Positions 956 to 15,464 of a stretch of 20,699 nucleotides of DNA are shown here, one piece after another. The stretch covers positions 1 to 20,699 of IMG/VR virus record IMGVR_UViG_3300044648_000212. One strand, given 5' to 3'. The notes below the pieces were generated by a model. It did not search any database, was not told where the DNA came from, and was given only the letters and a program-made list of their open reading frames with translations. A program made the translations under genes and the position numbers. This DNA comes from a virus. Numbering within the stretch: the first letter of the stretch is position 1; the number at the start of each line of letters is the position of its first letter.

Positions 956-1090
956 TTACCTGAGATCAGCTTCCACTATCGGCTTCTCATTCGCTTCGGA
1001 AACGAACATTGCTGTCGCCAGTACCGCTAAGAGTATACACACAGCCATCAGGACGCACAGGGCCACTTCACGAACGGTTATCTCTGTCAT
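956..1090 (-). CDS. Small membrane protein, 44 aa
   Basis: Reading leftward from ATG 1090, the protein starts MTEITVREVAL and then has one hydrophobic helix (about residues 9-30, VALCVLMAVCILLAVLATAM). A short acidic tail ends in EADLR. The ATG overlaps the integrase stop as ATGA, which suggests translational coupling. No function is recognisable. It is one of many single-span microproteins in this genome. Confidence 0.6.
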   Translation of the reverse strand: MTEITVREVALCVLMAVCILLAVLATAMFVSEANEKPIVEADLR

Positions 1091-1923
1091 GGTTGCACCC
1101 CCATGATTCTTCCCGCATTCGTTTCTAACGCCTTCTGGACTGGTGCTAAGTTCAGCCTAGTGTAGATCCCTGTGTTCGCCAGGGTAGTATGATTCAAGAC
1201 ACCCTTGCTAATCAAGGCGATATTTTCCCCATGGATAGCCAGCCAAGACGCACAGGTACGTCTGAGGTCGTGGATTGTCACATCAGGCAGGCCAGCGGCA
1301 CGGCGTATGCTTGTCCATCGGAGATGGGCTGCGCTCTTACTCCAGTGGCCTCGTTTGCTCGCAAAGACGTACTCATTATGATGAGTCAGTGCCTTGATGC
1401 GTTCTAACAAGGGGGTTGGGATGGGCACGGCATGTTTAATCCTGGTTTTGGTACGGTCCTTATGCCAAACGCCTCGAAAGAAATCAATGTCAGTCCATTG
1501 AATCGTGAGCCCTTCCATCTTCCGACAGCCCACCAGGAGGCAGAGGAGGAAATAGCACTGCCAATCCTCTGGCTCGGTACTGAGTACCTTAATGAGCAGG
1601 GGCATTTCCTCGGGCTGCACAAATCTGTCCCGTTCGTTCTTGGGATACTTTTTCACATTTCGGCACGGGTTGTCCCCTTCGTACATCTTCCAGTCTCTCG
1701 CCTTATCAAACATGGTGCGGAGAATGGACAGGCACTTATTGGCCTGGGACTTCGAGTGCTTCCCGATATTGTGATACCACTTCTCCACTATCAGGGGCGT
1801 CACGGCCTCGAGTGAATAGGGCTTGAGTGGGCCAAAGTATTTCGCAATGACCCATTCAAACTCTCGGCGTACCGAGAGATTGGCGACGTGACACTCCTTA
1901 AACTCCTGCATTAAAGCGTCCAT
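1087..1923 (-). CDS. int: Tyrosine-family site-specific recombinase (phage integrase)
   Basis: This 278-residue integrase would join attP and attB by strand exchange through a 3'-phosphotyrosine. The catalytic set is visible: R134 (VGCRKMEGL), K159 in the beta-hairpin (RTKTR), H218 and R221 (HDLRRT), H245 (LNHTT) and the nucleophile Y254 (GIYTRL). Residues 1-90 form the helical core-binding domain. The protein is shorter than the roughly 380-residue integrases because there is no clear N-terminal arm-binding domain. The start has GGAGG about 6 nt upstream. It is transcribed leftward from the same side as the RHH regulator, as expected for a lysogeny module, and a repeat-rich intergenic stretch sits just upstream of its start. 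Confidence 0.93.
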   Translation of the reverse strand: MDALMQEFKECHVANLSVRREFEWVIAKYFGPLKPYSLEAVTPLIVEKWYHNIGKHSKSQANKCLSILRTMFDKARDWKMYEGDNPCRNVKKYPKNERDRFVQPEEMPLLIKVLSTEPEDWQCYFLLCLLVGCRKMEGLTIQWTDIDFFRGVWHKDRTKTRIKHAVPIPTPLLERIKALTHHNEYVFASKRGHWSKSAAHLRWTSIRRAAGLPDVTIHDLRRTCASWLAIHGENIALISKGVLNHTTLANTGIYTRLNLAPVQKALETNAGRIMGVQP

Positions 1924-2881: not shown

Positions 2882-3097
2882 TCAGACCGCTGCATCCAAG
2901 CGGCGGCGGGACCGTTCATGAATAGGGTGCGATTGTTCCATTTCTAGTAGCGGTATAAATCTAATGAGAGCCTCTTTAATCATGCGGCTCTCACTCCACA
3001 TGGCATCCTGCTTGCGGATAGAAGCCATACGGCGCTTCAGATCCTTCGGCACATACCCAAAGACTTCAGCCGAGTGTTTGCTAATCATTCCCACCAT
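2882..3097 (-). CDS. Ribbon-helix-helix DNA-binding regulator, about 72 aa (likely repressor)
   Basis: The fold is read as a beta-strand (AEVFGYV), helix A (PKDLKRRMASIRKQ), a turn, and helix B (SESRMIKEALIRFIPLL), the Arc/CopG/MetJ pattern in which a dimeric ribbon contacts DNA. A basic tail (ERSRRRLDAAV) follows. AAGGAGG (3100-3106) lies 2, 5 or 11 nt before ATG 3097, GTG 3094 and ATG 3088, so the exact start is open. It is the first gene of the leftward operon and faces a second RHH gene across an operator-rich promoter region, as expected for an autoregulated lysogeny repressor. The repressor role is inferred from position. Confidence 0.75.
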   Translation of the reverse strand: MVGMISKHSAEVFGYVPKDLKRRMASIRKQDAMWSESRMIKEALIRFIPLLEMEQSHPIHERSRRRLDAAV

Positions 3098-3139
3098 CAC
3101 CTCCTTCCTGGCCTTGTAAGACAAAGTGTAAGACTAGAG

Positions 3140-3165
3140 TAGTACCGATACTAGTACCCTGTCAA
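3140..3165 (-). promoter_or_regulatory. Leftward promoter with overlapping GTACTA operators
   Basis: On the minus strand TTGACA (3165-3160) is followed by GTACTAGTAT (3157-3148) and GTACTA (3145-3140). The operator lies between the -35 box and the expected -10 position, where TACTCT is a poor hexamer about 18 nt downstream. A protein bound to the GTACTA half-sites would block polymerase. The downstream gene is the RHH regulator, so autorepression is the simplest reading. Confidence 0.6.
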
Positions 3166-3206
3166 GTGTGGGATTTACGTAACGGTCACTTTTATACAGA
3201 CAAAGG

Positions 3207-3254
3207 ACTTGACAAGGGTTCTCCCTTGGTGGTACTAGTACTACTCAAGTACTA
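3207..3254 (+). promoter_or_regulatory. Rightward promoter with palindromic GTACTAGTAC operator
   Basis: TTGACA (3209-3214) is followed, after an 18-nt spacer, by TACTAG (3233-3238, 4 of 6 matches to TATAAT). This -10 lies inside the perfect 10-bp palindrome GTACTAGTAC (3232-3241). A further GTACTA half-site lies at 3249-3254, just before the Shine-Dalgarno AAGGAGG. The same half-site occurs in the divergent promoter, so one regulator probably controls both. The rightward transcript begins with the 50-residue RHH gene and the early operon. Confidence 0.65.
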
Positions 3255-3267
3255 AGGAGGAACCCTG

Positions 3268-3420
3268 ATGCCAAAGCCACTGAAGCCCACCTCAATCAAG
3301 TTCACCGAACCACAAAAGCGATTCCTCAAGCATACGGCCAAAGCACAGGGCCATTGCAAAATCAGCGTCACCATTAAGCGACTCATAGACCGTGAGATGA
3401 ACCAAAACTCCGCAGCCTAA
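3268..3420 (+). CDS. Second ribbon-helix-helix protein, 50 aa (Cro-like position)
   Basis: ATG 3268 follows AAGGAGG with good spacing. A beta-strand (TSIKFTE) leads into helix A (PQKRFLKHTAKAQ), then a turn and strand (CKISV) and helix B (TIKRLIDREM), giving a minimal RHH fold with no extra domain. The protein is very basic. As first gene of the rightward transcript, opposite another RHH gene and beside shared operators, it occupies the place of Cro in lambdoid switches. It could instead be an antirepressor or a transcription activator of the early operon. The role is inferred from fold and position. Confidence 0.65.
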   Translation: MPKPLKPTSIKFTEPQKRFLKHTAKAQGHCKISVTIKRLIDREMNQNSAA

Positions 3421-3431
3421 GGAGGTGTCCA

Positions 3432-3542
3432 ATGTCGGACTTCCAACTAGGTATTTTACTCGGTGGTCCCGTCTGGTTCGCTGGTCTCGCATTCTTTAGC
3501 TACATCATGTTCACCGGCATGGTGAGAAGGGGGAAGCCATGA
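3432..3542 (+). CDS. Small membrane protein, 36 aa
   Basis: AAGGAGG precedes ATG 3432. After MSDFQLG comes one hydrophobic helix (residues 8-29, including PVWFAGLAFFSYIMF) and a basic tail, RRGKP, which predicts a cytoplasmic C-terminus. Its stop overlaps the next start as ATGA. No function is recognised. It opens a chain of three overlapping membrane microproteins. Confidence 0.6.
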   Translation: MSDFQLGILLGGPVWFAGLAFFSYIMFTGMVRRGKP

Positions 3543-3709
3543 AGCGAATCATTGGCCTCCTCATGTTCATCCTGCCGCTGATTGCCCTGACTGGCTACAT
3601 CACAATCGAGGTGTTGGGATGGCATGGGTTAGCCATGGATCTGACTGCGATTGGCGTTGGCTTCTACATATTTGTGTCGATGATTCTGACTATGGAGGAC
3701 TTTTTATGA
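3539..3709 (+). CDS. Two-span membrane protein, 56 aa
   Basis: ATG 3539 overlaps the previous stop, and an AGAAGGGGGAAG Shine-Dalgarno precedes it. Residues 4-24 (IIGLLMFILPLIALTGYI) and 34-52 (MDLTAIGVGFYIFVSMILT) form two hydrophobic helices joined by a short loop (EVLGWHG). The layout resembles small phage holin-like or superinfection-exclusion proteins, but its place in an early operon argues against a lysis role. Function unknown. Confidence 0.6.
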   Translation: MKRIIGLLMFILPLIALTGYITIEVLGWHGLAMDLTAIGVGFYIFVSMILTMEDFL

Positions 3710-3849
3710 CCGATTACGCCACCGATAAGCGTACTCAGTGGGTGAAGGAGGCTCAGGAAATCTCCTGGGTGGAAGTGATTGAGGCGAAGGACTTTGTGAT
3801 GATTCTGATTCTGCTCAATTTGATCTTGGCGATTCTGATACTGGCATGA
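3706..3849 (+). CDS. C-tail-anchored membrane protein, 47 aa
   Basis: ATG 3706 overlaps the previous stop. Shine-Dalgarno-like GGAGG lies inside the upstream gene about 9 nt before it. A charged soluble N-terminus (DYATDKRTQWVKEAQ and EVIEAKD) is followed by a strongly hydrophobic C-terminal helix (FVMILILLNLILAILILA) that ends at the stop. This is a tail-anchor arrangement. The role is unknown. It is the last of three coupled microproteins, before a structured stretch. Confidence 0.6.
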   Translation: MTDYATDKRTQWVKEAQEISWVEVIEAKDFVMILILLNLILAILILA

Positions 3850-7112: not shown

Positions 7113-7252
7113 CCGCTAACGCCTTTGTCTATCTGATGATGACGCTCAATGCCTGTGCCTCCATCGCCTATGTGTGGCAGGGGGAGCCGTGGCGAGCGGT
7201 TTACTGGGCAGCGGCGTTTACGTTGAACCTCTGCGTGGTCAATCTCAAATGA
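7109..7252 (+). CDS. Two-span membrane microprotein, 47 aa
   Basis: ATG 7109 overlaps the upstream stop, and TGA 7250-7252 overlaps the methyltransferase ATG at 7249, so it sits exactly between two genes. Residues 5-21 ([17 protein letters not shown]) and 29-45 ([15 protein letters not shown]) are hydrophobic, joined by WQGEPWR. It may exist mainly to couple translation, or may be a real membrane factor. Function unknown. Confidence 0.55.
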
Positions 7253-8181
7253 GCCTCCCTAAGCCCTATTACGAAGAGAACGGCATTGTGATTTACAACG
7301 CTGATTGTCGTGAAATCCTCCCCCATTTAGCCCCAGTGGATTTGGTGCTGACTGACCCGCCGTATGGGGTGAGGGATGACCAGTCATGGGACGCCTTAGA
7401 TCAATATGAATTTGCCCGTGTCTCTATGGACTGGATGAGCGGAGCTAAGGGCCTAGCCAGTTCCTTCCTTGTGTTCTCAGTATCATCTGGCCCAATGCGC
7501 CATATCTGTGAACTGCTATTCCCTAAGGTGCGTCAAATCATTTGGCATAAGCCAGAAGGCAGCCAATACACTGGAGCAAGTGAAGCAAAGCTCTGGTATG
7601 CCCACGAAACCATATTCCATTGCCATGACGGTTCAACGTGGGAAGTGGTGCTACCGAAAGCTAGGCGGCTCGCCTCCATATTAAAGGCTGCAAGGGAGAC
7701 GGCTGGCCTGTCGCGTGGTGCTGTTGATATTGCCATCAGGGGCAAGCGTACTGGCCTATGCTATCGGTGGGAAGAGGCGGCATGTATTCCGACCAATGAA
7801 CAGGCCGAACAGCTCAAGGCGCTGTTACGCTTAAATGGTGAGTTTAGCGAGGCTCTACAAGAGGCGTATAGCTCTAGGGATATAGTCCTAGAGAAAGCCG
7901 CAGAGAAAGCCGCAGAGAAAGCCGCAGAGAAAACTGACGTACTGTCTCACCGCACCATAACAAGCCCGCTCCATCCTTGTGAAAAGCCAGTAGGCTTGCT
8001 TTCCGATTTGCTCCTTACTGTTGGCTATGAAGCTGGCACCATCCTAGACCCCTTCATGGGTTCAGGCACTACGCTACGAGCGGCGAAGGATCTAGGCAGG
8101 AAGGCCATTGGTATAGAGATTGAGGAGAAGTATTGCGAGATAGCAGCAAAGCGGTTGGCTCAGGAAGTGTTGCCATTATAG
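7249..8181 (+). CDS. DNA methyltransferase (N6-adenine/N4-cytosine) with inserted HTH-like domain
   Basis: This 310-residue enzyme has motif IV TDPPYG (residues 35-40) before motif [10 protein letters not shown] (267-275), the beta-class order of solitary or phage methyltransferases. Motif X-like HPCEKPVGL (242-250) is also present. Between them, residues 140-198 ([20 protein letters not shown] ... [16 protein letters not shown]) look like an XRE helix-turn-helix rather than a usual target recognition domain. A four-copy EKAA repeat (215-227) follows as a linker. I chose ATG 7249 by its overlap with the upstream TGA; a GTG at 7174 would add 25 poor residues. It probably protects phage DNA from restriction or marks origins. 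Target sequence unknown. Confidence 0.85.
7891..7932 (+). repeat. 12-bp tandem repeat inside methyltransferase gene
   Basis: GAGAAAGCCGCA is repeated three times exactly, followed by a partial fourth copy (GAGAAA). It encodes the EKAA linker between the HTH-like insert and the C-terminal catalytic half. In-frame copy-number change would only alter linker length. Confidence 0.9.
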
Positions 8182-11642: not shown

Positions 11643-12025
11643 AGGTACGGCATAAGGTCAGTGGGAAGGTGGCTGAGGTGCTTGAGGAGTCCCCGCGTTT
11701 CTTTCTGATTCATTGGGGCGAGGAGATGCCGTTGCTGTATACCGATGCATGGCTCAAGGCTGATTGCGTGATTCACCCCACCGAGACCTGGCGTGATGTG
11801 ACGGGGGAATGTGAGGTACAGCCTAACGGAGAAATTTGGCACAAGCACAAGAATGGGTGCGTAACTAACGCAACGTATTATTCCGTGTTCTCAGACCCGG
11901 CTGGCTACCGCCTCCGCAAGGTGCAGGTGATGCAACCAGAAGGTGCTGTGGTGAAGGCTGATGGAATGTTCGGCACGCAATGTCTCGTTACAGACGCCTT
12001 CATCGTGGAGAAGCGTGAGCCATGA
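11639..12025 (+). CDS. Hypothetical protein, 128 aa
   Basis: GGGGAAGGAG precedes GTG 11639, which overlaps the upstream TGA. The first 40 residues (MKVRHKVSGKVAEVLEESPR) look like a small SH3-like beta fold; a second part (GECEVQPNGEIWHKHKNGC) is also beta-rich with Cys and His. No family is recognised. Its TGA overlaps the start of the NeuB-like gene as ATGA, so it could be the first member of the cassette. Confidence 0.55.
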   Translation: MKVRHKVSGKVAEVLEESPRFFLIHWGEEMPLLYTDAWLKADCVIHPTETWRDVTGECEVQPNGEIWHKHKNGCVTNATYYSVFSDPAGYRLRKVQVMQPEGAVVKADGMFGTQCLVTDAFIVEKREP

Positions 12026-12855
12026 GCGAAACGTACAAAACGTACATAATAGCCGAAATCGGGATTAATCATAACGGGTCGTTAGATTTAGCCAAGAGGT
12101 TAATAGATGCCGCGAAAGAAGCGGGGTGTGATGCCGTCAAGTTCCAGAAGCGGACGATTGAAGCGGTCTACACGAAAGAGGAGCTTGAGAAGCCGCGAAG
12201 TTCCCCTTTTGGGACCACAAACGGTGACCTCAAGCGAGCTTTGGAATTTGATCGTGGACACTATGAGACCCTATTCGCGTATTCCAAAGAAGCCGGTCTT
12301 GATTGCTCGGCTAGCTGCTGGGACGAAGATAGTGTACGGCTAATCGCCTCCTTCAATCCCCCCTGGCTCAAAATCCCCTCCGCATTGATTACCAACAGGC
12401 CGTTATTGGAGGCGTATGCCAAAACTGGCATAAAACTGTATCTCTCTACTGGCATGTCTACGGCCGAGGAGGTGTCTGATGCGATGCTCTACCTTGACGC
12501 GAAAGGCTGTGATGTATTCCCCCTTGCCTGTACGAGTACATACCCGTGTGCTCCCAGCGAACTCAACTTGCTCTATGTGCGAACTCTCATCGGTCTATAC
12601 GGACGGGCGGGGTTTTCTAGTCATTGTGTATCGCCTTGGCCAGTCCTCGGTGCGGTTGCGCTTGGGGCCACAGTTGTCGAAGCCCACCTTACGCTTGATC
12701 GCACATCGTTTGGATCGGATCAGGCAGCAAGCCTTGAACCTAAAGCATTTGCCAAGATGGTGGAAGAAATCAGAACGCTCGAAACGGCGTTAGGCACAGG
12801 GGAGAAGGTGGTCTATCCCAGTGAAATTCCGGTGAGGGAGAAGCTGAGACGATGA
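12022..12855 (+). CDS. NeuB/SpsE-family nonulosonate synthase-like enzyme, 277 aa
   Basis: The family condenses phosphoenolpyruvate with a hexosamine (for example ManNAc) to give sialic, legionaminic or pseudaminic acid. The TIM-barrel motifs are present: AEIGINHNG (11-19), AVKFQ (38-42, K40), LKIPSA (116-121, K117, S120), LSTGMST (141-147), the metal-binding His201 (GFSSHC, normally GLSDHT) and His222 (VEAHLTLDR), and GSDQAASLEP (231-240). The length is short: the C-terminal SAF/antifreeze domain of typical 340-residue NeuB is missing. That domain contributes a sugar-contacting Arg, so the substrate may differ. It is the first enzyme of a four-enzyme cassette in the packaging region, coupled to neighbours by ATGA overlaps. 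Confidence 0.85.
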   Translation: MSETYKTYIIAEIGINHNGSLDLAKRLIDAAKEAGCDAVKFQKRTIEAVYTKEELEKPRSSPFGTTNGDLKRALEFDRGHYETLFAYSKEAGLDCSASCWDEDSVRLIASFNPPWLKIPSALITNRPLLEAYAKTGIKLYLSTGMSTAEEVSDAMLYLDAKGCDVFPLACTSTYPCAPSELNLLYVRTLIGLYGRAGFSSHCVSPWPVLGAVALGATVVEAHLTLDRTSFGSDQAASLEPKAFAKMVEEIRTLETALGTGEKVVYPSEIPVREKLRR

Positions 12856-13013
12856 TTAAATCAATTCTTGATGCTGGTCTCGGTCTGTTCTTGCTTGTCG
12901 GTGGAATCTACACCGCCTATCACTATGAATCACAACTTACTTACTTCCAGGCCGTGACGATGTTGACTGGTGCCTGTTATTGGTTCGATGAAGCGAAGAG
13001 AGACTTGGAATGA
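12852..13013 (+). CDS. Membrane microprotein within the cassette, 53 aa
   Basis: ATG 12852 overlaps the stop of the NeuB-like gene and its own TGA overlaps the aminotransferase ATG. Hydrophobic segments are at residues 4-22 (SILDAGLGLFLLVGGIYTA) and more weakly 31-44 (YFQAVTMLTGACYW). A charged end (DEAKRDLE) follows. It might tether the pathway to the membrane or merely couple translation. No function is recognised. Confidence 0.5.
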   Translation: MIKSILDAGLGLFLLVGGIYTAYHYESQLTYFQAVTMLTGACYWFDEAKRDLE

Positions 13014-13936
13014 GAACCATCTATCTCAACGGCGAATGGATACCGGAAGCTGACGCCAAGATTTCCGTCTACGACTTGTCCGTTATGCAAGGGGTCGCCT
13101 GCTTTGAAATGACCCGTAGCTTCTCTCACCAACACTTCCGCTTAGACGAACATATTAGCCGCTTACGGGAATCCATGAAGCTGCTAGGCATTACCGACCC
13201 CTTACCTGGCAAATGGGGCTGGCATGATGTGGTGCGGGAGTTGACTGATAGAAACCCGATGGGGATTGAAGATGAATACCGACTGCTTCTGGTGGCTAGC
13301 CCTGGCTGTGCCGAGATGTACCATAATATCGAAGGCACCATTACGCATTCTTACGCCTACGCAGCAACGTTTCCCCTGCGGTACACCGTATCCGGCCTAT
13401 CTCACTACTTTGACGATGGGGTTAAATTAGTCATTAGCCCTGTCCGTCAGGTGCCTTCCCTCTCTGTGCCGGCCAGAGCTAAACACAGAAGCCGCTTACA
13501 TTTCCACTTAGCCCAGCAAAAAGCCGCTCCCGATTGGGCGCTGATGCTCACCTATGACGACAAGGTAGCAGAATGTCCCGGTGCCAATATCTGCGCGTTA
13601 GTAGACGATGAGCACTTGATTTGTACCACGGATGAAGCCTTACCGGGGATTTCTCAGCGCATGGTCGCTGATTTAGCGGAAGAGGAAGGCTTGCATGTCA
13701 TGTGGGATGAGTTGAGCGTGAGGGATTTGATTAATGCGGAAGAGATTTGGCTTACGGCAACACCGTTCTGTGCGTTTTGGGTTTCGCATATTGAAGGCCG
13801 GCCGATTGGCTCAGGCATGGGCTTGGTACCACCGATGTATGAAAAGATTATGGACCGCTGGTCTGAGCGTGTCGCATGTGACATCAGGGGTCAAATGTCT
13901 GGATGGGACAATGCTATCAGGACTAGCACAACTTAA
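13010..13936 (+). CDS. Class IV PLP aminotransferase (fold type IV, BCAT/D-amino acid transaminase-like), 308 aa
   Basis: The family exchanges amino groups between amino acids and 2-oxo acids, or performs related PLP chemistry. The start (YLNGEWIPEADAKISVYDLS) and the strand with ARAKHRSRL are typical; K158 is the likely Schiff-base lysine. E188 (KVAECPGAN), R51 (HISRLRE), GISQRMVAD (213-221) and EIWLTATPF (245-253) complete the fold type IV pattern. Length is normal. Nonulosonate pathways normally use DegT-type (fold type I) aminotransferases on nucleotide sugars, so a class IV enzyme here suggests an amino- or keto-acid substrate. The start is coupled to the microprotein upstream, and the 3' end overlaps the radical SAM gene. 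Confidence 0.85.
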   Translation: MRTIYLNGEWIPEADAKISVYDLSVMQGVACFEMTRSFSHQHFRLDEHISRLRESMKLLGITDPLPGKWGWHDVVRELTDRNPMGIEDEYRLLLVASPGCAEMYHNIEGTITHSYAYAATFPLRYTVSGLSHYFDDGVKLVISPVRQVPSLSVPARAKHRSRLHFHLAQQKAAPDWALMLTYDDKVAECPGANICALVDDEHLICTTDEALPGISQRMVADLAEEEGLHVMWDELSVRDLINAEEIWLTATPFCAFWVSHIEGRPIGSGMGLVPPMYEKIMDRWSERVACDIRGQMSGWDNAIRTSTT

Positions 13937-14708
13937 TATCGAGCTAACTAGTAAGTGCGACAAGACGCACCTCTGCCCCATGTGCGGCCATCAGAATCCT
14001 GATGTGAACCCTATTACCTACGGAGATATGGATGTACGGTTACTCGCAAACATACGGAGCCAGTTGCAACCTGGAATTACCATCTCCTTCCATAGAGACG
14101 GTGAACCGACAGCGCATCCAAGATTGCGAGATTGCTTGGAACTCTTTAGTGGATTCACTACGTCTCTTGTTACTCACGGGCTTAATCTCGAAACGCTCTG
14201 GGAGGAAATTGTTGGGCGATGTACTACAGTTACGGTCTCGGTATTCCGTGGCGATAAAGACGCAGAAGCGCAGATGCGAAGCATTAAAGGATTTCTGCGT
14301 AATAAAGGCTCCCGCCTCCCGCAAGTCCAAGTCAAAATCGTTGGCGACATGCTCCAAGACGGCATTGAAGAGTACGAAGCGTTAGGCGTTCGGGTGATAC
14401 GGAGGCTTATTCATGTCCCGATTGATAACAGCAAGTATGCTCATCGCGCTCCGGTGGTGCCAGAAGTTGGAATCTGCCTTGACGCATTGCATCGTCCAAC
14501 GATTGCTCAAGACGGGCGTATGTATCTTTGTAACCGGCTCGATGCTCAAGGACATGGATACATCGGAGACGCTAACACAGAAACACTCGAATCCATCTGG
14601 AACGGACCGACACGGCAACGCATGATTGAAGCGCATAAGGCGGGACGGAGGGACTTAGCCAATCCGTTATGTGCAACCTGTAAACACTGGGGCACTCCAA
14701 GTGCTTGA
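13911..14708 (+). CDS. Radical SAM enzyme with CX5CX2C motif and SPASM-like tail, 265 aa
   Basis: C16, C22 and C25 (SKCDKTHLCPMCG) would hold the [4Fe-4S] cluster that cleaves S-adenosylmethionine, but the spacing is CX5CX2C instead of the usual CX3CX2C. DGEPTAHP (63-70) corresponds to the GGE motif that contacts SAM. C189, C207, C254 and C257 resemble a SPASM/twitch auxiliary-cluster domain found in peptide- and sugar-modifying enzymes. I chose ATG 13911, with GGATGGG upstream, because the longer frame from 13734 only reads through the aminotransferase gene out of frame. It probably does a radical rearrangement, epimerisation or dehydrogenation on an intermediate of the cassette pathway; the substrate is unknown. 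Confidence 0.8.
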   Translation: MLSGLAQLNIELTSKCDKTHLCPMCGHQNPDVNPITYGDMDVRLLANIRSQLQPGITISFHRDGEPTAHPRLRDCLELFSGFTTSLVTHGLNLETLWEEIVGRCTTVTVSVFRGDKDAEAQMRSIKGFLRNKGSRLPQVQVKIVGDMLQDGIEEYEALGVRVIRRLIHVPIDNSKYAHRAPVVPEVGICLDALHRPTIAQDGRMYLCNRLDAQGHGYIGDANTETLESIWNGPTRQRMIEAHKAGRRDLANPLCATCKHWGTPSA

Positions 14709-14811
14709 ACGAATATTTGCCGCGATAGTTGGTCTGTTTGTGATTGCCATGGCCTGTATGTTCCTGTTCGGAATTGCCAAGCACGTATTTATAAGAGTGG
14801 TGCTCAATTGA
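14701..14811 (+). CDS. Membrane microprotein within the cassette, 36 aa (GTG start)
   Basis: GTG 14701 overlaps the end of the radical SAM gene by 8 nt, with TGGGG upstream. After VLERIF comes one helix (AAIVGLFVIAMACMFLFGIA) and a tail (KHVFIRVVLN). Its TGA overlaps the TTG start of the cytidylyltransferase. It is the second membrane peptide placed between the enzymes of this cassette. Function unknown. Confidence 0.5.
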   Translation: MLERIFAAIVGLFVIAMACMFLFGIAKHVFIRVVLN

Positions 14812-15464
14812 AAGTCGTCGCTATTTTGCAGCAAAGAATGGGCAGCACTAGGCTCAAGGGGAAGGCTCTACTACCCCTGGCCGGTAAAAGCATGACGGAG
14901 AACATTATTGAGCGGGTGAAAAGGGCAAAGCGGCTAGATCATGTGGTGCTAGCCGTTCCTCCTCAGGATGAGAACGCTTTTGCCTGGATGCCCTGTCGTG
15001 TTCATGCGCCATTGGTGGATGAGAACGATTTAGTAGCACGTTACCTCACCGTAGCTGAACGCTGTCATGCTGACATTATCGTGCGAGTGCCATGTGATAA
15101 TCCATGCATTCAGCCTGAGTACATAGACGAGGTTATTGAAACCTATCTTTCTTGCGATGTCACGTTCTCATCGAATACTACGGCAAAGGTGAACGGAAAG
15201 TGGGTTGATGGTGTTGGGGCAGAGGTGTTTAGCGTAAGTCGGCTAAAAATTCTTGACCATGAAACGCGGAACCGTGAGTGCTACCGAGATGCGAGCTACC
15301 GCGAACACCCACACAAGTATTTTAATTACATCCTCCCGAAAGCTGATGTACGCCTAGATGTCAACACCCAAGAGGATTACGACTTCATCAACGGCATCTA
15401 CGAGATGTTTGGACATAACAATTTCCATGTGAATGACGTACTAGCCTACCTGGAGTCGAAGTAA
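14808..15464 (+). CDS. SpsF/NeuA-type cytidylyltransferase, 218 aa (TTG start)
   Basis: Enzymes of this family transfer CMP from CTP onto 2-keto-3-deoxy sugar acids (CMP-sialate or CMP-KDO type). ILQQRMGSTRLKGKALLPL (residues 6-24) is the nucleotide-binding signature, followed by PLVDENDLVARY (68-79) and VRVPCDNP (92-99) with the metal-binding Asp97. WVDGVGAEVFS (132-142) and RLDVNTQEDY (182-191) are typical for SpsF. The TTG start overlaps the previous stop as TTGA. It would activate the product of the NeuB-like enzyme. No glycosyltransferase that would use the CMP product is visible in the window. Its TAA shares a base with the large terminase ATG. Confidence 0.8.
   Translation: MKVVAILQQRMGSTRLKGKALLPLAGKSMTENIIERVKRAKRLDHVVLAVPPQDENAFAWMPCRVHAPLVDENDLVARYLTVAERCHADIIVRVPCDNPCIQPEYIDEVIETYLSCDVTFSSNTTAKVNGKWVDGVGAEVFSVSRLKILDHETRNRECYRDASYREHPHKYFNYILPKADVRLDVNTQEDYDFINGIYEMFGHNNFHVNDVLAYLESK

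Follow-up and report, generated by a model that had tools for sequence, protein, structure and literature searches.

The segment from 2882 to 3420 of the window, by which we mean the whole 20.7-kb virus record analyzed here, is probably a self-contained lysis-lysogeny (immunity) cassette that encodes two putative ribbon-helix-helix (RHH) repressors with common operators. As read from the DNA, a divergent two-gene switch with common operators is well supported, because sister phages keep the layout with another shared operator and because exactly this two-gene unit has been exchanged. The features are collected in Table 1.

Table 1. Features of the cassette and its surroundings (positions in the window)
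Feature	Position	Strand	Remarks
Tyrosine integrase	1087..1923	-	PF00589, E=8e-24; left of the cassette
Exchange unit	2882..3420		Alignment edges at the P1 and P2 stop codons
Left gene, P1	2882..3088	-	68 aa from ATG 3088; putative RHH
Shine-Dalgarno sequence of P1	3097..3106	-	AAGGAGGTGA; from the sequence
Left operator (candidate)	3140..3157	-	GTACTAGTAT plus GTACTA 12 bp beyond; directly after the leftward -35
Leftward -35 candidate	3160..3165	-	TTGACA; from the sequence; same place in the sister phages
Rightward -35 candidate	3209..3214	+	TTGACA; from the sequence
Right operator (candidate)	3232..3254	+	GTACTAGTAC plus GTACTA at 3238 and 3249 (11 bp apart)
Shine-Dalgarno sequence of P2	3254..3260	+	AAGGAGG; from the sequence
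Right gene, P2	3268..3420	+	50 aa; putative RHH
Conserved small protein	3706..3849	+	47 aa; right of the cassette; 87% identical in the sister

The cassette has the integrase on its left and recombination, RusA, and replication genes on its right. Besides a RusA-like protein and replication genes, the window codes for a DNA methyltransferase, a large terminase, and a P22-type portal. Bacterial genomes searched with the integrase profile gave one weak archaeal match. Directly to the right of the cassette are three small hydrophobic ORFs (36, 56, and 47 aa; 3432-3849), of which the 36- and 47-aa ORFs are conserved in relatives. Farther along, the methyltransferase (7174-8181) has within it a segment resembling a helix-turn-helix insert, and the region just before the terminase (12022-15464), encoding a NeuB-family synthase, a class IV aminotransferase, a SPASM-domain protein, and a cytidylyltransferase, looks like a phage-borne nonulosonic-acid-type cassette.

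Two divergent genes and a mirrored control region

A preliminary description of this DNA reported two small genes facing each other across 170 bp and sharing a GTACTA-type operator region. The paired genes and the shared region are real, but the genes are divergent, lying back to back, and the gap is 179 bp (3089-3267) when P1 begins at ATG 3088. That start, behind the Shine-Dalgarno sequence, is the most likely one; the 80-aa ORF listed for P1, from TTG 3124, is a mechanical maximum. Both genes are preceded by a strong ribosome-binding site, that of P2 sharing one base, the last, with the third half-site on the right. By its position and direction, P2 is the first gene of a rightward early operon.

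Each promoter had also been described as TTGACA followed by GTACTA/ATACTA sites. The -35 boxes and the sites were found as described, but good -10 elements are missing: at spacings of 15 to 19 nt, no hexamer agrees at more than 3 of 6 positions, and no sigma-70-like site passed in a promoter scan of the region. The promoters of the window are thus placed by their -35 boxes and by comparison with the relatives. Both sequences pointed out earlier are present, GTACTAGTAC at 3232-3241 and GTACTAGTAT at 3148-3157 (read from 3157 to 3148). On the left side, RTACTA sites occur at 3140-3145(-), 3148-3153(+), and 3152-3157(-), and on the right side at 3232-3237(+), 3236-3241(-), 3238-3243(+), and 3249-3254(+). 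The right operator covers the expected -10 position and reaches up to the Shine-Dalgarno sequence of P2.

Seven of the 15 RTACTA sites in the whole window lie inside 115 bp. The gap holds 7 where 0.75 would be expected, a count reached in none of 5,000 dinucleotide shuffles, albeit for a motif picked after the fact. Because the motif came from the region itself, we also used a motif-free test that counts the 6-mers common to the reverse-complemented left half and the right half of the gap. There were 16 such mirrored 6-mers (p=0.0008 by shuffling), and the mirror score of the gap was the highest among 4104 sliding positions in the window. A mirror-score peak at L002 14391 sits within a long coding gene and was rejected. 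At the level of sequence, the region has the anatomy of divergent promoters with common operators.

An imperfect 16-nt inverted repeat (3215-3266) pairs the ribosome-binding site of P2 with sequence at the -35. As RNA, this hairpin has a predicted energy of -24.1 kcal/mol (z=-2.6), and on any transcript begun upstream of the predicted promoter it could keep P2 silent.

The same layout with another operator in related phages

A sister phage from the same metagenome, reached via its integrase (IMG/VR contig 3300045996_000725, here L004), is 84-97% identical to the window across the integrase and left-end genes and 79% identical in the flank just left of the cassette, with 88% over the small gene to its right. 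In the same place as P1 and P2, it carries divergent genes of 71 and 51 aa, the start of its 71-aa P1 being chosen by alignment. At the DNA level, the window can be aligned with L004 as far as 2884, at the P1 stop codon (2882-2884), and with a third phage (contig 001019, here L042) again from 3420, at the P2 stop codon (3418-3420), which makes 2882-3420 the exchanged unit. Inside the cassette, the window and sister DNA are 32-46% identical, compared with a mean of 29% and a maximum of 40% for unrelated stretches. Contig 001019 itself begins (L042:1-20) at the base matching the sister P1 stop codon, where the alignment of window and sister ends, and we infer that its start is an assembly break where the common flank meets the variable unit.

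Within this unit, the layout is kept and the operator is changed. A 12-nt word, TAGTAGGGCATA, is mirrored with 100% identity at both L004 promoters (motif-free p=0.0008), and GTACTAGTA is absent throughout the L004 contig. The L004 promoters are better than those of the window, with TTGACA-18-CATACT on the left and TTGCAT-17-CATAGT on the right. Three 10-bp units in direct orientation (AGGGCATGAT/ATGGCATAGT/AGGGCATAAC) make up its right operator, spaced by about one helical turn; the corresponding spacing in the window is 11-12 bp. L042 has the same operator type as L004 (type B). Between these two phages, the operator blocks are 94-100% identical, compared with 68% for the inter-promoter DNA and 65% for P2 after codon 15, and the conserved blocks are, as judged from this comparison, the footprint of the putative operators. 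The sister P2 genes (51 and 50 aa) resemble the P2 of the window in position and size, at a sequence identity of 17-24%. In its anatomy, with edges at both stop codons and a changed operator, the replacement has the form of a heteroimmune cassette exchange.

The preliminary description had suggested looking for paired RHH genes in relatives. The divergent two-gene layout is indeed found in L004 and L042, but family and fold searches did not identify these proteins as RHH. Beyond these relatives, the window P1 and P2 as queries gave no matches among the viral contigs, and the window P1 and the sister proteins gave none in a phage collection. A scan of the viral contigs for the window operator returned 3 matches, all in one tail-fibre-like coding stretch, which we attribute to chance.

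Relationships of the proteins and the putative RHH fold

The window P1 aligns with the sister P1, from the start of the latter, at 31% identity over 48 aa (E=6e-4). The sister P2 was in turn retrieved by a profile built from both P1s (E=2.9e-4), and BLASTP matches the sister P1 and P2 at 37% over 35 aa (E=1e-5); taken together, these matches indicate that the pair arose as paralogues. The best match between the type-B proteins is the N-terminal strand, M-A-T-K...Q-V-V-G-Y-V versus M-[PA]-T-K...Q-I-V-A-Y-V. When DNA-facing residues are placed by alignment to the DNA-contact positions of Arc, those predicted are Q-V-Y for the sister P1 and P2 alike, E-F-Y for the window P1, and P-S-K for the window P2. 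In the sister phage, it thus seems likely from the sequences that P1 and P2 bind a common site.

For the window pair, one can envision that the GTACTA sites of both promoters are bound by P1 alone, which would be autorepressor and lytic repressor in one, and that P2 is a small early protein of another kind (an anti-repressor, an excision factor, or other). The difference between P-S-K and E-F-Y, predicted by analogy with Arc, would fit this, as would the finding that no profile links the window P2 to P1; the N-termini of the two also have no obvious match, unlike those of the sister pair. We nonetheless consider this rather unlikely, given that the type-B P1 and P2 are homologous with matching N-termini (M-A-T-K...Q-[VI]-V-[GA]-Y-V), which points to a common site there.

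The assignment of both proteins to the RHH family, made in the preliminary description, was not borne out by family, PDB, or fold searches. No RHH match to P1 or P2 was obtained in Pfam, PHROGs, NCBIfam, or PDB-sequence searches, and fold searches with the P1 and P2 models were empty. The AlphaFold models are weak (pLDDT 70 and 68, pTM about 0.3); at this low confidence, P2 is a loop-helix-helix and P1 a long helix. The sister P2 had a sub-threshold match to DUF3408 only, and a 7-member RHH profile run against 32 related records gave one weak match. By eye, the spacing of strand, helix A, turn, and helix B in P1 and P2 fits Arc, and the RHH fold is put forward here as a putative reading of the sequence pattern. 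A PDB profile match to a TFIID subunit, spanning 28 residues of a low-diversity profile, was discounted, and a hand-made RHH regular expression was dropped after it missed Mnt itself.

Comparison with known switches and a proposed mode of action

The idea of a divergent RHH pair has a precedent in Mnt/Arc of P22, and immI, where these are encoded, is the nearest precedent for the cassette. Mnt is reported to be a relative of Arc (about 40%), with Mnt acting in lysogeny and Arc in lytic growth (PMC7549136, citing Youderian 1982); in P22 the pair constitutes a secondary immunity locus that works via Ant (PMC11016777). Both loci have a divergent pair of small genes, the longer on the left and the shorter on the right, with operators in the shared promoter region, and the sizes agree (83 aa for mnt and 53 aa for arc, compared with 68 and 50 aa in the window and 71 and 51 aa in the sister). 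They differ in that P1 and P2 have no sequence match to Arc or Mnt: there was no Pfam match to PF03869, and an Arc-plus-Mnt profile ranked neither protein among 1002 ORFs. Nor is there an ant directly downstream, the next rightward ORFs being the three hydrophobic ones. Because homology and ant were both looked for and not found, we do not file the cassette as an immI. The two also differ in setting, immI being a second immunity locus beside the C2/Cro region whereas the window cassette adjoins the integrase and early genes, and in that close relatives of the window phage differ by exchange of the whole unit, operator included.

The pair might still be a secondary locus in the manner of immI, controlling an antirepressor or exclusion gene, with the main repressor in a missing part of the genome. 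The matching gene sizes and layout would be in keeping with this, and all the contigs, including the window and the fullest sister contig (20.7 and 34.5 kb), may be fragments from which a further repressor could be missing. Against it are the location of the pair between integrase and recombination/replication genes, the lack of an ant-like gene among the ORFs that follow, and the result that neither the window nor the 34.5-kb sister contig has an HTH_3 (PF01381) match; we regard it as quite unlikely. A role outside immunity is very improbable: RHH proteins commonly serve in plasmid-style copy or partition control (CopG/ParG-like), in excision, which could place one next to int, or as antitoxins, but the early genes inspected included no toxin-like partner, ParA, or plasmid Rep, and an excision factor needs neither a divergent pair with mirrored promoters nor replacement as a unit together with its operator.

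The preliminary description had likened the region to a CI/Cro switch built from RHH proteins. In the sense of working like immI and CI/Cro, the comparison is supported by the layout, operators, exchange, and position; the RHH part of it is the part that the tools did not recover. Like the immC region of lambdoid phages, the cassette lies between integration and early replication functions, has divergent promoters sharing operators, and comes in what would be heteroimmune versions. Unlike immC, it yielded no HTH_3 match, and its proteins of 50-71 aa have no second domain and hence no CI-type cleavable domain. Two other systems share single features. In the archaeal virus SSV1, the small RHH protein F55 maintains lysogeny via tandem repeats at early promoters and its own (PMC5569661), but it is a single protein acting at tandem ATAGATAG sites in archaeal promoters, with no paired counter-repressor. 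Related cluster A mycobacteriophages are heteroimmune when their repressors, and with them the matching sites, have diverged (PMC6550527), but there one repressor has many sites across the genome, whereas the sites in the window are concentrated in the switch only.

We imagine that the immunity cassette favored here would work as follows. P1, read toward the integrase, would be the lysogeny repressor (the CI/Mnt role); its position and direction suggest that it would be expressed along with the integrase side and keep the rightward early operon off. P2, from the first gene of the early lytic operon, would be a Cro/Arc-like counter-repressor. The two would be small RHH proteins, probably dimers, expressed from divergent promoters, with copies of one operator family (GTACTA in the window) in both -35/-10 regions, so that occupancy would decide which promoter fires. 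Exchange of the cassette between related phages would then change immunity specificity (heteroimmunity).

Since neither ant nor an HTH_3 repressor is found in the available DNA, the pair may be the main switch. More tentatively, the primary switch of this group of tailed phages may lack a CI-type repressor and consist entirely of a duplicated pair of RHH proteins. It would then exist in at least two specificity types, in which proteins and operators have changed together and which are exchanged from stop codon to stop codon within one natural population. If this is right, about 540 bp would make up a minimal, complete immunity module that occurs naturally in two specificity types. Such a cassette would permit a direct test of a repressor pair and its shared operator changing together while control persists, and it would mean that the Mnt/Arc design can be the main switch of a temperate phage.
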